DNA from: an uncultured Eubacteriales bacterium
GTDB taxonomy: Bacteria; Bacillota; Clostridia; Oscillospirales; Acutalibacteraceae
Reading direction: 5' to 3'
DNA: 64,000 nt
Assembly (NCBI GenBank): GCA_900315605.1
Contig: OMZU01000024.1
Span: 18,849 to 82,848, forward strand
Shown here: positions 9,311 through 50,852 of the stretch, piece by piece
How the letters are laid out: each line of letters starts with the position of its first letter
Numbering within the stretch: position 1 is the stretch's first letter
Translations under genes and position numbers: made by a program
The notes under the pieces: generated by a model
Told to the model about the DNA's origin: nothing
Seen by the model: only the letters and a program-made list of their open reading frames with translations
The model's database searches: none

Positions 9311-9331
9311 CATTTGTTTTTCAATCCTCTT

Positions 9332-9463
9332 ATACTAATCTCAGATAAAAAGTGGACAAAGATTTGCGAGGATATTTTTCGCAAGACGAGGCGAAGGACG
9401 CCGCAAGGCTGTCGCCTTGCAAGGACGCGCAAAGATTGTCTATTTTTTATCTGAGTTTAGTAT
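9332..9463. repeat. 132-bp inverted-repeat element abutting the lgt stop codon
   Basis: The ends are imperfect inverted repeats of about 27 bp: ATACTAATCTCAGATAAAAA on the left, and ATACTAAACTCAGATAAAAA on the complementary strand at the right end. The interior is GC-richer, has smaller inverted repeats (GCAAGGC/GCCTTGC) and codes for nothing credible. It occupies the whole space between the rhamnose operon terminator and the lgt stop codon. It resembles a MITE or a REP-type element. Confidence 0.7.
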
Positions 9464-10281
9464 TAACCGGGTTTTTTGTTTTCCGGGATTCTCTTTCGGC
9501 GGTAGATAAATATAAAATAAAAAGCAGAGAACAGAAACAGAATAATACTGATTACTTGTGAAGTTGACAGACCCAAGAAAAAACCGCGGTAGGCGTCGCC
9601 TCTGAGAAATTCATCGAGGAATCTTATCACAGAATACAAGCCGAGATACAAAGCAAAAAGACCGCCCTTTAGCTTACCCTTGTTAAGCAGATAATAGAGT
9701 AGGAAGAACAAGCCCAGATTCAGCGCGGCTTCCAAAAGCTGCACCGGAAAGCGTTCAACGTCATTCACGCTGGGATTAACAGTGTTTCCGTGAATCGTGA
9801 TCCCACAGCCGTGACACTCGATACCGTAGCAGCAGCCGCCGAAGAAGCAGCCGATCCTTCCAAAGCAATGGAACAGAGGGACTGCCGGCGCGAGGATATC
9901 GGAATATTCCAAAAGGTCAAGCCTTTTGATTTTTCCGTAAATCAAGCCCGCGGCGATTCCGCCCAAAAGTCCGCCGTAGAACACAGAGCCGCCGAAAATA
10001 TAAGAAAAAATCGCGATAAAATCTCCAATGCTCTTGATATACTTGCCCCAGTGGGTCACAACCTCCCAAAACGCGGTCATCTGGGTCACGCCGTAAAGAA
10101 TGTGTCCGCCGATAAAAACGCCGATTGCCGAAATCAGCATAAATACAATGTAGTCGTTGTCGTCGTGACCGCGCTTTTTGGCTGTTCGGCACACAACAAA
10201 GCCGGATGTCAGCACGCCTATCAGCACAAACACCGCATAGGACGAAAGCTTCATTCCGAATATATCAAAATATGGAAGCAT
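9463..10281 (-). CDS. lgt: Prolipoprotein diacylglyceryl transferase
   Basis: Lgt is an integral membrane enzyme that moves diacylglycerol from phosphatidylglycerol to the lipobox cysteine of prelipoproteins. The sequence has about seven hydrophobic segments and the Lgt core signature GRIGCFFGGCCYG near residues 140-155, flanked by PLFHCF and FPVQLLEA. Length is 272 residues, typical of the family. The ATG is preceded by GAGGTG. A plausible client, the lipoprotein at 33,622, lies in the same window. The stop codon coincides with the end of an inverted-repeat element. Confidence 0.94.
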   Translation of the reverse strand: MLPYFDIFGMKLSSYAVFVLIGVLTSGFVVCRTAKKRGHDDNDYIVFMLISAIGVFIGGHILYGVTQMTAFWEVVTHWGKYIKSIGDFIAIFSYIFGGSVFYGGLLGGIAAGLIYGKIKRLDLLEYSDILAPAVPLFHCFGRIGCFFGGCCYGIECHGCGITIHGNTVNPSVNDVERFPVQLLEAALNLGLFFLLYYLLNKGKLKGGLFALYLGLYSVIRFLDEFLRGDAYRGFFLGLSTSQVISIILFLFSAFYFIFIYRRKRIPENKKPG

Positions 10282-13937: not shown

Positions 13938-14045
13938 AATACAAATAGCATTCTTATTTATGTTAGAAGCAAGATTTCTTTAAAAGTTAAATCAACATAA
14001 CAAGTTATTTATTCTATTATTAGGATTTCAATATTTTAAAAATAA

Positions 14046-14220
14046 AACTCATTTTCGGGTCTCTGACGTTTTTTCTTGCTTCGACCCTTATTCCCGGCGT
14101 AAAAAACGTTATTTATAAATATAACTCATTTTCGGGTCACCGACGTTTTTTATTGCTCCAACCCTTCTTCCCGACGTAAAAAACGTTATTTTATAGGAAA
14201 GGTTATTTTCGGGTTACCGA
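14046..14220. repeat. 77-bp direct repeats, two full copies and a truncated third
   Basis: Equivalent positions occur at about 14,049, 14,126 and 14,203, an exact 77-bp period. Each full unit begins TCATTTTCGGGTC and contains ACGTTTTTT and AAAAAACGT as 9-bp inverted arms around a GACCC/CCCG-rich loop, so each could fold as a hairpin. The third copy stops after about 20 bp. The block lies between parS and the noc-like gene and has no coding capacity. Confidence 0.75.
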
Positions 14221-14229
14221 GGCATATAC

Positions 14230-14270
14230 TTACTCCGAGTATTCTACTCGGAGTAAAAAACTCGGAGTAA
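14230..14270. repeat. Perfect 12-bp-arm palindrome plus a third half-site
   Basis: TTACTCCGAGTA, a three-base spacer, and TACTCGGAGTAA form a perfect inverted repeat. A third ACTCGGAGTAA follows in direct orientation. It could be a hairpin or a protein-binding site. Confidence 0.65.
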
Positions 14271-27060: not shown

Positions 27061-27256
27061 TATCGACGCCTGCACCGTGTCAAAAAAAACAAGGGATTTT
27101 CTCGCCGCAGCACAAAAAAACGGTGAGGTAGTAAACGTATCCTATGAGCTGCCGAGATCATTTGTAGTTTGTCGGGAAGCCGAAAAAAACATTGTTTATA
27201 TAAGCCAGCTTTCAACAAAAACGCTTATGAAAAGAATTTTATCAATGGACAATTGA
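26999..27256 (+). CDS. remB: RemB-like DUF370 regulator (YaaB family)
   Basis: The 85-residue protein begins MYLHLGQDTVIEAETITAMFDID, the pattern of Bacillus RemB/YaaB (DUF370), a small DNA-binding regulator linked to biofilm matrix genes. Position between recF and gyrB agrees with Bacillus gene order. It overlaps the recF 3' end by 62 bp. The final codons (SMDN) lie in the first bases of a CAATTGACAATGG-type repeat, so the C-terminus has probably been altered by it. Confidence 0.85.
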   Translation: MYLHLGQDTVIEAETITAMFDIDACTVSKKTRDFLAAAQKNGEVVNVSYELPRSFVVCREAEKNIVYISQLSTKTLMKRILSMDN

Positions 27257-27485
27257 CAATGGACAATTGACAATTAATGTCGGGCAGACAGAATTAATTT
27301 TTAAAAAAACTTTGTTCCCGACTGTATCACTATTGAGATAATTCTGTTTATATAGCATTTAACTATAGTTAATTAATATAGAAAAAAATAAATCAATATT
27401 TATACAGTCGGGAATAAACGCATTTTCCAAGCAGATTTTTCTTCCCGACCAAAATTGTCAATTGTCAATTGTCCATTGTCAATTG
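27241..27485. repeat. Large imperfect inverted repeat with CAATTGACAA-type arms
   Basis: The left arm (27,242-27,284) and right arm (27,444-27,485) consist of reiterated GACAATTGACAATGG-like words in opposite orientation, each ending in GTCGGG/CCCGAC. Inside, TTCCCGACTGTAT near 27,316 and ATACAGTCGGGAA near 27,403 form a second, perfect 13-bp inverted pair. There is no coding capacity. It fills the whole remB to zinc-ribbon gene gap. Confidence 0.75.
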
Positions 27486-27500
27486 AAAAGAGAGGTATAT

Positions 27501-36148: not shown

Positions 36149-36269
36149 ATAAGGCTTGTTTAATAAATAAGAATGCTACTAAAACAGCGTTTTGAAAAAA
36201 TTTGTGTTGTTATTCTCACAATTTTTTAAAACCGCTCCGAGCATACGATATTTATTAAACAAGCCTTAT
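36149..36269. repeat. 121-bp element with perfect 21-bp inverted ends after mgtE
   Basis: Both ends read ATAAGGCTTGTTTAATAAAT inward (36,149-36,169 and, inverted, 36,249-36,269). A second pair of inner arms (ACAGCGGTTTTAAAAAATTG-like) makes the whole element foldable into one long hairpin. It begins 20 bp after the mgtE stop and may also terminate transcription. No second copy was seen in the window. Confidence 0.75.
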
Positions 36270-37341: not shown

Positions 37342-37442
37342 TTAAGGCAATACCGCATAATTCAGGTGTACGGATTGCTCAGTCAGATTTTTCGTCAGAA
37401 TGTTCAAATAATCAGTTCGCATACTGACGTATGGGGACTGAT
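37342..37442 (+). repeat. Truncated TTAA-family inverted-repeat element
   Basis: The left 100 bp of the complete element at 38,088 are present with scattered differences (TTAAGGCAATACCGCATAAT start, internal CATACTGACGTATGGGGACT). The right half, including the inverted end, is missing. It stops exactly at the stop codon of the GyrI-like gene. Confidence 0.8.
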
Positions 37443-38075
37443 TTAAGCTTTCCTTATAGGGTGTCTGATTATGGTTTTCAGCTTTTCGGGAGAAACCTTT
37501 CTTGCGTCGCTGAGATAGATTTCGTGATGCAGCCGGCTTTTTGTGATGTCAAGAGCATAACCCTGACTTTCCATATACTCGTGCATAAGTGCTTCGGTTT
37601 TCGGCTCGTCATCATATGCACCGATATGCATACACTGAACGCACAAGCCCTCATCATAGGTAAAAAATTCGACCTTTGAAAAATCAAGCTTCTTTTTCCT
37701 CATTGCCTCGTCAACAGCCCATTCAAGGTCAGCTCTTGTTACAAAATCGGGAAGCCTTATCATTGAGATCCACCTAAAGCTTTCTTTGTGAGCATAATCG
37801 ATTCCGCTCACTCCGTCCTGCCACCACAAGCCCTCAAGCGGAGGAACAACATAGTCAAAATAACCGTCGATCACGCGGCTGCCCTTTTTGCTCATTTTGA
37901 TCGTATAAGCGATCGAATACAGCAATTCTATCGACTGCTTGTATTCGCCGCCCTCCTCGTTGGGGTCGCCCTGTCCGCGAACGGCAATAAAATTCATGCT
38001 CGGAACAGTAACAATGCCGGGCTTGTTCTTAGGCATATAAAATTCCCTAAACTCTTTTTTGTAGTCAAAAGCCAT
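37443..38075 (-). CDS. GyrI-like small-molecule-binding domain protein
   Basis: The 210-residue soluble protein shows the pattern of stand-alone GyrI-like proteins: VPSMNFIAVRGQGDPNEEGG near residues 25-44, then EGLWWQDG and HEIYLSDARKVSPEKLKTIIRHPI at the C-terminus. GyrI-like domains bind small hydrophobic ligands, and some act as detoxifying hydrolases; the ligand here is unknown. GAGGTG precedes the ATG. The gene is bracketed by a truncated TTAA repeat (downstream) and a complete one (upstream). Confidence 0.85.
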   Translation of the reverse strand: MAFDYKKEFREFYMPKNKPGIVTVPSMNFIAVRGQGDPNEEGGEYKQSIELLYSIAYTIKMSKKGSRVIDGYFDYVVPPLEGLWWQDGVSGIDYAHKESFRWISMIRLPDFVTRADLEWAVDEAMRKKKLDFSKVEFFTYDEGLCVQCMHIGAYDDEPKTEALMHEYMESQGYALDITKSRLHHEIYLSDARKVSPEKLKTIIRHPIRKA

Positions 38076-38087
38076 ATCGCACCTCAG

Positions 38088-38256
38088 TTAAGGCAATACC
38101 GCACAATTCAGGTGTGCGGATTGCGCAGTCAGATTTTTTGTCAGAGTGCCCAAATAATCAGTGTGCATACTGCCGTACGGATACTGATTTTTGGGCAGTC
38201 TGACGGAATAATATGCAAGCAAGGCGTGCGCCACGAATTGTACGGTGTTGCCTTAA
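38088..38256 (+). repeat. Complete 169-bp TTAA-bounded inverted-repeat element (MITE-like)
   Basis: The left end TTAAGGCAATACCGCACAAT and right end (complement) TTAAGGCAACACCGTACAAT match at 20 or so of 23 positions. The interior holds further paired words (CAGTCAGATT with GTCTGACGG; CAAATAATCAGT with ACTGATTTTTGGGC) and a core CATACTGCCGTACG. It has no open frame. The right TTAA overlaps the birA stop codon; the left edge is 13 bp from the GyrI-like start. Confidence 0.88.
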
Positions 38257-40549: not shown

Positions 40550-40584
40550 GGGAATCTCTAAAATTTCATAGCTGCCCATATGAT
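40550..40584 (-). repeat. Degenerate fragment of the 44,326-type element
   Basis: GGAATCTCTAAAATTTCATAGCTGCCCATA aligns, with a few changes, to the right end of the complete element at 44,326-44,460. It lies just after the coaBC stop. Confidence 0.6.
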
Positions 40585-44325: not shown

Positions 44326-44460
44326 TTAAGGGCACCTCTAAAAATTCACTGTTGTTCAGAGGTGCGGATATTTTATAGTAGATTTATGTCAAAACGACGA
44401 AGTCATACTGACGTATAACGAGGACTATGGGCAGCTATGAATTTTTAGAGGTGCCCTTAA
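44326..44460 (+). repeat. Complete 135-bp TTAA-bounded element with perfect 23-bp inverted ends
   Basis: The two ends (44,326-44,348 and 44,438-44,460) are exact inverted repeats opening TTAAGGGCACCTCTAAAAAT. The interior has GTTGTTCAGAGGTGCGG and a core CATACTGACGTAT shared with the elements at 37,342 and 38,088. No open frame is present. It lies between the transketolase terminator and trxB-like gene. Confidence 0.9.
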
Positions 44461-50259: not shown

Positions 50260-50841
50260 ATGAACATTTGTGTTTTCGGCTCCTCCAGCGAGCAAATTGA
50301 AAAAAAATATCTTGATTCTGCCCAAAGCCTGGGCGCGGCGATCGCGGCGCGCGGCTGGGGGCTGATCTTCGGAGCGGGAAAATACGGAGTTATGGGAGCT
50401 GTTGCCCGTGGCGCAGCAGAGAAAAACGGCGTCATTGTCGGCGTAAGCCCCGAGTTTTTTAAGGAACTAAACGTTTTGCGCTATGATTGCACCGAACTTG
50501 TTTTCACCGATACCATGCGCGAGCGCAAAGGAGTTATGGAGGACAGAGCCGACGCCTTTGTGATTTGCCCCGGAGGAATCGGGACCTTTGAAGAATTTTT
50601 TGAGGTCATAACCCTAAAGCAGCTTGAACAGCACTCAAAGCCCATAATAATATATAACGTGGGCGGCTACTACGACCCAATGCTCGAAATGATGAATATT
50701 TCGATCGGACAGGATTTTATGAGCCACGACGTAACAAAGCTGTATGAGGTTGTTGACACCGAGCGCGAGGTGCTTGACCATATCGAAAACTACGTGCCGT
50801 TCTCATACAACAAATATAAGGTCAGCTCTAAAAATTCATAG
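50260..50841 (+). CDS. LOG-family protein (TIGR00730, phosphoribohydrolase-like)
   Basis: This 193-residue Rossmann-like protein has the LOG signature PGGIGTFEEFFEV and GLIFGAGKYGVMGAVARGA. LOG enzymes release free bases from nucleoside 5'-monophosphates; many bacterial members were mis-called lysine decarboxylases. GAGAGG precedes the ATG. The last four or five residues (SSKNS) and the TAG stop are supplied by a copy of the 44,326-type repeat, as in the thioesterase at 30.5 kb. Confidence 0.88.
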   Translation: MNICVFGSSSEQIEKKYLDSAQSLGAAIAARGWGLIFGAGKYGVMGAVARGAAEKNGVIVGVSPEFFKELNVLRYDCTELVFTDTMRERKGVMEDRADAFVICPGGIGTFEEFFEVITLKQLEQHSKPIIIYNVGGYYDPMLEMMNISIGQDFMSHDVTKLYEVVDTEREVLDHIENYVPFSYNKYKVSSKNS

Positions 50842-50852
50842 CTGCCCATAAA
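50823..50852 (-). repeat. Terminal fragment of the 44,326-type element inside a coding end
   Basis: AGCTCTAAAAATTCATAGCT and the following GCCCATA match the complement of the right end of the 44,326-44,460 element. It provides the final codons and stop of the LOG-family gene. Confidence 0.7.

Follow-up and report, generated by a model that had tools for sequence, protein, structure and literature searches.

The window, the whole 64,000-nucleotide stretch of contig OMZU01000024.1 analyzed here, derives from an uncultured Eubacteriales bacterium of the family Acutalibacteraceae and carries, at positions 44326-44460, a 135-bp element whose first 23 bases (44326-44348) are the exact reverse complement of its last 23 (44438-44460). 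The element, assigned to a family denoted A, comprises the following features:

44326-44329, no strand: left copy of the target duplication TTAA (single TTAA at the empty site in G057, matched 4-mers elsewhere)
44330-44348, plus strand: 19-bp terminal inverted repeat at the left end (GGGCACCTCTAAAAATTCA), reverse-complementary to 44438-44456 at every base, with matching insertion sequence (IS) ends in L196
44396-44424, plus strand: core module, with the tip hairpin enclosed by a purine-rich internal loop (GACGA / GAGGA), matched by the C-family model R1
44405-44416, plus strand: tip hairpin ATAC-TGAC-GTAT, within CATACTGACGTAT (44404-44416)
44420-44426, plus strand: approximate site of a deletion of about 34 bp (169 to 135 bp), from alignment to full-length copies
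44438-44456, minus strand: right terminal inverted repeat, 19 bp
44457-44460, no strand: right copy of the target duplication TTAA (empty site in G057)

The element is a real insertion. In the same-genus genome G057, the orthologous site is empty, with the flanks joined at a single TTAA (...CACA-TTAA-CATC...), and other copies are flanked on both sides by TAAA, TATA, TTTA, TTAT, TATT or TTCA instead of TTAA; TTAA is thus the duplicated target, which leaves 19 bp for the inverted repeat itself. The sequence-only reading had described a TTAA element with perfect 23-bp ends; the 23 inverted bases are exact, consisting of the 4-bp target duplication and the 19-bp inverted repeat, and the inclusion of TTAA in the repeat was rejected, given the one TTAA at the empty site and the other 4-mers at other copies. 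With duplicates and composites longer than 200 bp left out, identical 4-mers flank 14 of 17 A copies (the 17 including 4 found in relatives) as well as 19 of 22 rows of a second family, B, in which element L047 is represented in both orientations as two rows, and identical 3-mers flank 25 of 27 copies of a third family, C.

Full-length A copies, of which the same genome contains many, are 169-170 bp long, duplications counted, and in comparison with these, about 34 bp are missing from the right arm of 44326-44460. One A copy is nested inside another, with TATA duplicated. The small size (135-177 bp), the many copies in the same genome, the lack of a transposase gene, the inverted repeats and the target duplication together define a miniature inverted-repeat transposable element (MITE), and 44326-44460 is a shortened copy of such a 169-bp MITE.

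Two further families are represented in the window: B, with inverted repeats and a length of 169 bp, and C, with ends beginning TACTAAT and 3-bp duplications.

38088-38256, plus strand: full B element, 169 bp including the TTAA duplications, with the tip CATACTGCCGTAC at 38166-38178
37342-37444, plus strand: 5' 103 nt of a B element (169 bp when full), with an exact core at 37420-37432
9333-9462, plus strand: C element with TACTAAT ends, TTA duplicated at 9330-9332 and 9463-9465
9403-9420, plus strand: C tip GCAAGGC-TGTC-GCCTTGC, within the C element 9333-9462

A fourth family, D, has the ends AAGTAGACAATGATTAATTC. Two covariance models were built, R1 from C interiors only and R2 from B/D interiors. 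In the window, R1 matches the C element at 9372-9447 (E 3.8e-9) and the A element at 44396-44424 (model positions 26-54), the latter at E 0.02 in the window search and 0.064 in a larger search. A short element at 36149-36269, with 21-bp perfect inverted ends (AAGGCTTGTTTAATAAATA) that resemble those of the core-carrying locus L333, was also observed; the R1 search of the window gave no match there.

The core CATACTGACGTAT occurs exactly at 44404-44416 and 37420-37432, with the variant CATACTGCCGTAC at 38166-38178, in each case at an offset of 79 from the element start (44326, 37342 and 38088). Within the window alone, this recurrence is only mildly surprising (three matches at up to 2 mismatches vs 0.72 expected; 2 of 100 shuffles reach three). 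Genome-wide, CATACTGACGTAT is found exactly 43 times in the same genome and 152 times in G057, vs none in either for the reversed control, and a looser pattern with one mismatch allowed gives 57 matches in the same genome vs 6 for its reversed control. These counts led us to reject a chance match, and together with the common offset they bear out the earlier claim of an interior shared by the three copies. Among 150 same-genus genomes, 50 have the core; single matches of the reversed control occur in 15 of the 150, so that genomes with a lone core match may be chance cases. Loci in the genus scan were selected for CATACTGACGTAT; family C was also sampled without that selection.

The core forms a hairpin tip in each of the four families A, B, C and D, whose ends are unrelated. 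Interiors, taken as elements minus 25 bases at each end, were compared by local alignment against 1000 dinucleotide shuffles, yielding scores of 36 for A-C, 30 for B-C, 30 for C-D and 136 for B-D (0 of 1000 shuffles as high in each case), 28 for A-B (1 of 1000) and 26 for A-D (2 of 1000); in A-D, B-C and C-D, nothing beyond the 13-15 nt core is aligned. The 5' ends of the four families do not score above shuffles, 89 to 596 of 1000 of which reach the same score. An element from another genus of the family, L324, has a B end (17 identical bases) and an interior scoring 52 against A, 48 against C, 42 against D and 40 against B (all 0 of 1000), and by these alignments is a link element, with a B-type end on an A/C-type interior, that ties the wider interiors together. 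R1 finds most A copies, with E values from 8e-7, the A or A-like loci not below 0.01 being L016, L011, L094, L095, L127 and the window copy. Its matches to B/D elements are weak (best L195 at 0.01, L174 and L056 at 0.04), which counts against the reading of a common module. With R2, the E values are 8e-8 for L324, 2e-6 for L096 and 0.0015 upwards for other A copies, and C copies are matched at no better than 0.03. As judged from these alignments, the interior outlasts its ends, being found within different inverted repeats and target duplications of different lengths, in agreement with the earlier suggestion that ends and middle evolve separately.

Consensus sequences of A and B fold into a single long hairpin (-84.3 and -92.8 kcal/mol, respectively) with the core at the tip, and the same hairpin is formed by full-length C (L100, L104, L114, L121, L124) and D (L099, L113) elements. 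The short C copy in the window folds with a side hairpin, and copies L106, L110 and L123, each missing an arm, form no such hairpin. Covariation was scored on structures derived from these sequences themselves, by folding or by hand, with 29 of 30 C, 47 of 52 B and 17 of 17 A rows kept (the C copy L043:892-978, with an insertion, and five antisense B matches were dropped). In C, 91.1% of cells are paired, 13 of 25 pairs are changed on both sides, and covariation is 0.368 vs 0.151 in shuffles (0 of 500 as high) and at most 0.063 in slid controls; in the tip helix, pairing reaches 97%, and both sides have changed in 4 of the 7 pairs. Two features of C count against a conserved structure, namely, a middle helix only 66% paired and fewer further pair types than in shuffles (24 vs 27.2). 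In B/D, 95.0% of cells are paired, 7 of 31 pairs are doubly changed, and covariation is 0.153 vs 0.094 (0 of 500). Family A alone, with 95.4% paired and 2 of 36 pairs doubly changed, gives 0.067 vs 0.065, with 111 of 500 shuffles as high, which also counts against the main reading; the lack of signal reflects the fact that A copies hardly vary.

A wider search yielded 39 hairpins, each an R1 match or a neighbor of one, with 25 different 7-base tip arms that pair at 6.49 of 7 positions on average vs 4.06 for shuffled partners (highest 4.59), a pairing that is partly selected because the hairpins were found via R1 and the longest central stem served as the tip, a few tips being doubtful. The tip loop is TGNC in 30 of the 39. 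In the same genome, 3 of 39 B rows have the stem GGTAAGGC/GCCTTGCC, with the loop TGAC, in place of the usual stem. The internal loop reads GACGA/GAGGA in A and GACGC/AAGGA in C and, as a model, can be drawn as the pairs G-A, A-G, C-G, G-A and A-G, the last being C-A in C.

The strands were compared by aligning each 5' arm to the reverse complement of the 3' arm, which treats both alike; the sense strand was named by the core sequence, not by the fold, and copies with no recognizable tip were left out of the mismatch counts. Among 16 representatives with less than 75% mutual identity, G-U exceeds A-C by 104:34 (more G-U in 14 of the 16), G-A exceeds T-C by 79:6, G-G exceeds C-C by 27:1 and A-A exceeds T-T by 32:18; the representatives are related, so that p-values from this test are too small. 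Across 91 elements, G-U is ahead in every group except Coth, where the ratio of 28:42 counts against the main reading, and the strand with the core folds more stably in 90 of the 91. Changes private to single copies are weakly one-sided (44 G-U vs 27 A-C, summed), again a point against the main reading, so the asymmetry comes mainly from the family founders. Such founder asymmetry is compatible with selection acting on lineages that continue to move, and does not indicate that inserted copies are maintained. Because G-U and G-A pairs fall on the core strand, vs A-C and T-C on the other, we infer that the module acts single-stranded, and from these sequence patterns the core appears to have been shaped by a single-stranded role, probably as RNA, and not as spacer DNA. 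Compensatory changes in B/D and C, a mostly constant loop on varied stems and the one-sided mismatches support a conserved structured core, in line with the proposal, made in the sequence-only reading, of a conserved RNA or protein-binding core; that reading had named a chance core match with no covariation as the contrary outcome and paired changes in the core as the test, and against the 43 exact matches vs 0 in the control, paired changes exceed shuffles in B/D and C and do not in A.

A likely partner for the A elements lies on contig C73 of the same genome (L196), namely, an IS5-family element of 1231 bp with an open transposase frame (341 aa, TTG start) that scores 282.3 bits against NF033581 transpos_IS5_4 (cut-off 140). 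Its ends, GGTAACCTCTAAAAA and GGTCACCTCTAAAAA, match A-type ends and are flanked by ATAA on both sides; a broken relative is present on contig C1. IS5-family elements duplicate a short AT-rich target, 4-bp YTAR in the IS5 subgroup, and the IS loci examined here are flanked by 4 bp that are not all YTAR: ATAA (L196 and L132), TAAA (L130) and TTAA (L139 and L142). Ends of 12 transposase loci were read by script. A-like ends with matched 4-mers were found at L130 and L132, from named relatives, related ends with duplicated TTAA at L139 and L142, and A-like ends with no matched 4-mer at L128 and L131; the script found no ends at L129, L133, L134, L135 and L144, and the ends of L006, which it missed, are readable by eye. 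Judging from the matching ends, the C73 transposase most likely moves A elements in trans. A PF01609 search of G000 (the genome of the window), G057, G079 and G082, with L204-L207 checked, found none of the B, C or D end-types around a transposase, which counts against the main reading. At L196 1318-2721, on C73, a B element abuts the IS5-family element at a common ATAA boundary, so that A-type and B-type ends use one kind of 4-bp target.

R1 matches are widespread, stricter filters having been used in scans of more than 40 genomes. At E <= 1e-3, R1 matches 41 of 120 genomes of the family, representing 41 of 119 genera, with at least 39 matches in one genome (all 39 candidates scored there). 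At E <= 1e-4, it matches 49 of 197 genomes of the order, across 16 families, and 6 of 199 in a sample of the phylum, 2 inside the order and 4 outside. Ruminococcus sp. RGIG2444 (L129) and Ruminococcaceae bacterium P7 (contig L147, E 2.4e-5) are among the sources of matches. Other genera show at least six further apparent end-types. Double elements, made of two oppositely oriented core hairpins of which the minus one always precedes the plus one, were found at eight loci, seven in other genera (L323, L326, L328, L329, L336, L337, L339) and one within the genus (L102), and span 257-278 bp in the seven of eight with readable ends. A single 221-base query around the L312 element had no match in phage and plasmid collections.

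The elements are intergenic, with 1 of 83 inside an ORF of at least 100 aa. Among 42 elements between co-directed genes, 16 are sense and 26 antisense (p 0.16), and this lack of a significant orientation bias, which counts against the main reading, leaves a simple one-orientation cis-effect on neighboring mRNA unsupported, so that a stand-alone or trans-recognized RNA hairpin is preferred. No promoter-like or terminator-like site was seen at the window copy, the missing promoter being another point against the main reading. Searched with Rfam 15 at gathering scores, the window contains two tRNAs only, neither in an element, and at E <= 0.5, nine loci together gave one T-box-like and one L20-leader-like match, each adjoining an element, with none inside. 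One of the loci, L113, has a T-box-like leader at 1162-1414 on the minus strand (63 bits, gathering score 93) beside a D-type element. A search of open-licence papers gave, among the titles listed, no account of these elements, which is weak evidence of absence.

The element at 44326-44460 is a MITE, and we consider it probable that its module-bearing interior works single-stranded, most likely as RNA, and that an IS5-family transposase mobilizes the element. The MITE, with no transposase of its own, inserted into a TTAA and duplicated it, moved in trans most likely by an IS5-family transposase like that of C73. Between its ends lies the module common to other families, a long hairpin with a changeable short tip stem and a mostly TGNC loop, to which the A and C modules add a purine-rich internal loop drawable as tandem G-A pairs around C-G. 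The module would act single-stranded, most likely as an RNA recognized by a host factor that binds the loop and the internal loop, and in the course of time it would have acquired, or swapped, different transposase end-types. We lean slightly towards the broader proposal of an undescribed structured RNA, spread over many genera of an order of anaerobic gut bacteria with up to at least 39 scored copies in a genome, that travels between unrelated DNA transposons; what is conserved would be the RNA hairpin, with its mostly TGNC loop and tandem G-A internal loop, and the ends would be replaceable vehicles. The interior of a MITE is usually regarded as spacer or as a remnant of an IS; in the present families, it shows paired changes and one-sided mismatches. 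Should the module be an RNA, it would be a mobile non-coding RNA with a history of several transposases, and one could then test whether a carried function explains the success of bacterial MITEs.

Several alternatives compete with this reading. The families could be snapback MITEs of common ancestry, with the core a functionless palindrome tip and the matched changes produced by arm-to-arm copying. The elements are indeed palindromic end to end, A shows no covariation above shuffles and post-insertion changes are nearly symmetric; however, arm copying predicts equal numbers of G-U and A-C and of G-A and T-C mismatches, in conflict with the 104:34 and 79:6 found, and the loop has stayed mostly TGNC despite turnover of the stem, so we regard this explanation as unlikely. 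A main rival, to which we give somewhat less credence still, is a hairpin that works as single-stranded DNA, bound by the transposase or a host protein during movement or replication. REP hairpins, which are bound as single-stranded DNA, provide a somewhat comparable case, and G-T and sheared G-A pairs stabilize DNA hairpins too; an asymmetry that traces to family founders and not to inserted copies, together with the unbiased orientation relative to genes, also suits a DNA hairpin. Against it, the evidence for movement consists of ends and duplications, and the ends differ whereas the core is common.

The hairpin could instead be a cis-acting mRNA element, such as a terminator or a processing or stability hairpin, that affects neighboring genes, as proposed for NEMIS and ERIC. 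The intergenic placement and the strength of the hairpin agree with such a role, but the excess of antisense over sense copies is not significant and the window copy has no terminator-like site, making this improbable. That the core is a remnant of coding sequence we find barely credible: A and C copies do show, by eye, a short peptide frame that is similar in both, yet the compensated turnover of the stem alters the peptide while the loop and pairing stay, and on these compensated changes the coding remnant was disfavored.

Bacterial MITEs mobilized by IS5-family IS resemble the present elements in being short and geneless, with inverted repeats, a target duplication, many copies and a same-genome IS with matching ends, and REP/REPIN sequences, dispersed hairpins in inverted pairs that are moved by RAYT transposases, resemble them as dispersed hairpins; unlike REP/REPIN, the present elements have inverted repeats and target duplications. 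Unlike bacterial MITEs, they have an interior common to families with unrelated ends and duplication lengths, and their mismatches are one-sided. Hairpin transcripts of prokaryotic MITEs are known, according to the sections of PMC10969869 that treat them. NEMIS/Correia and ERIC are described in part of PMC2229807 as intergenic hairpin repeats proposed to act on mRNA; on that description, they are similar in placement and hairpin form, and differ in sequence and in that orientation is unbiased here. The relevant portions of PMC10969869 and PMC2229807 contain no single interior across families with unrelated ends. CIR elements of Caulobacter and relatives, again as outlined in PMC2229807, have two hairpin arms, a linker and the tip-loop motif GANTC; by this description, their two-arm plan is somewhat like that of the double elements here, and the loops differ (GANTC vs mostly TGNC). 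Modular, mosaic non-autonomous elements of another transposon family are reported in the part of PMC4133298 concerned; they are likewise modular and mosaic, and the elements here, from a different transposon family, carry a like core between unlike ends.

Other repeats were observed in the window. Nested inverted repeats of CAATTGACAATGGA-like units occupy 27239-27489, directly upstream of a gene start, and a 77-nt unit is repeated in three tandem copies, the third diverged, at 14035-14265. In G000, contigs C8, C15, C40, C54, C56, C66, C79, C80 and C81 have their ends inside elements or only a few bases away, so the assembly was probably broken by these repeats.

Micro-units of 27-28 bp that correspond to the outermost right end of A only were seen in the window and at L361 and L358:

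30921-30948, plus strand: 28-bp A right-end unit, flanked by unequal 4-mers (TTAA / ATAA)
40550-40577, plus strand: 28-bp A right-end unit, ATAT on both sides
50820-50847, plus strand: 28-bp A right-end unit, ATAA on both sides

Identical flanking 4-mers, read by eye, were found at three of the checked places (ATAT, ATAA, ATAT). At L358, a 38-bp A left-end unit, also read by eye, lies between copies of AATT. The 27-28 bp micro-units are possibly the smallest units moved by the A-end transposase.
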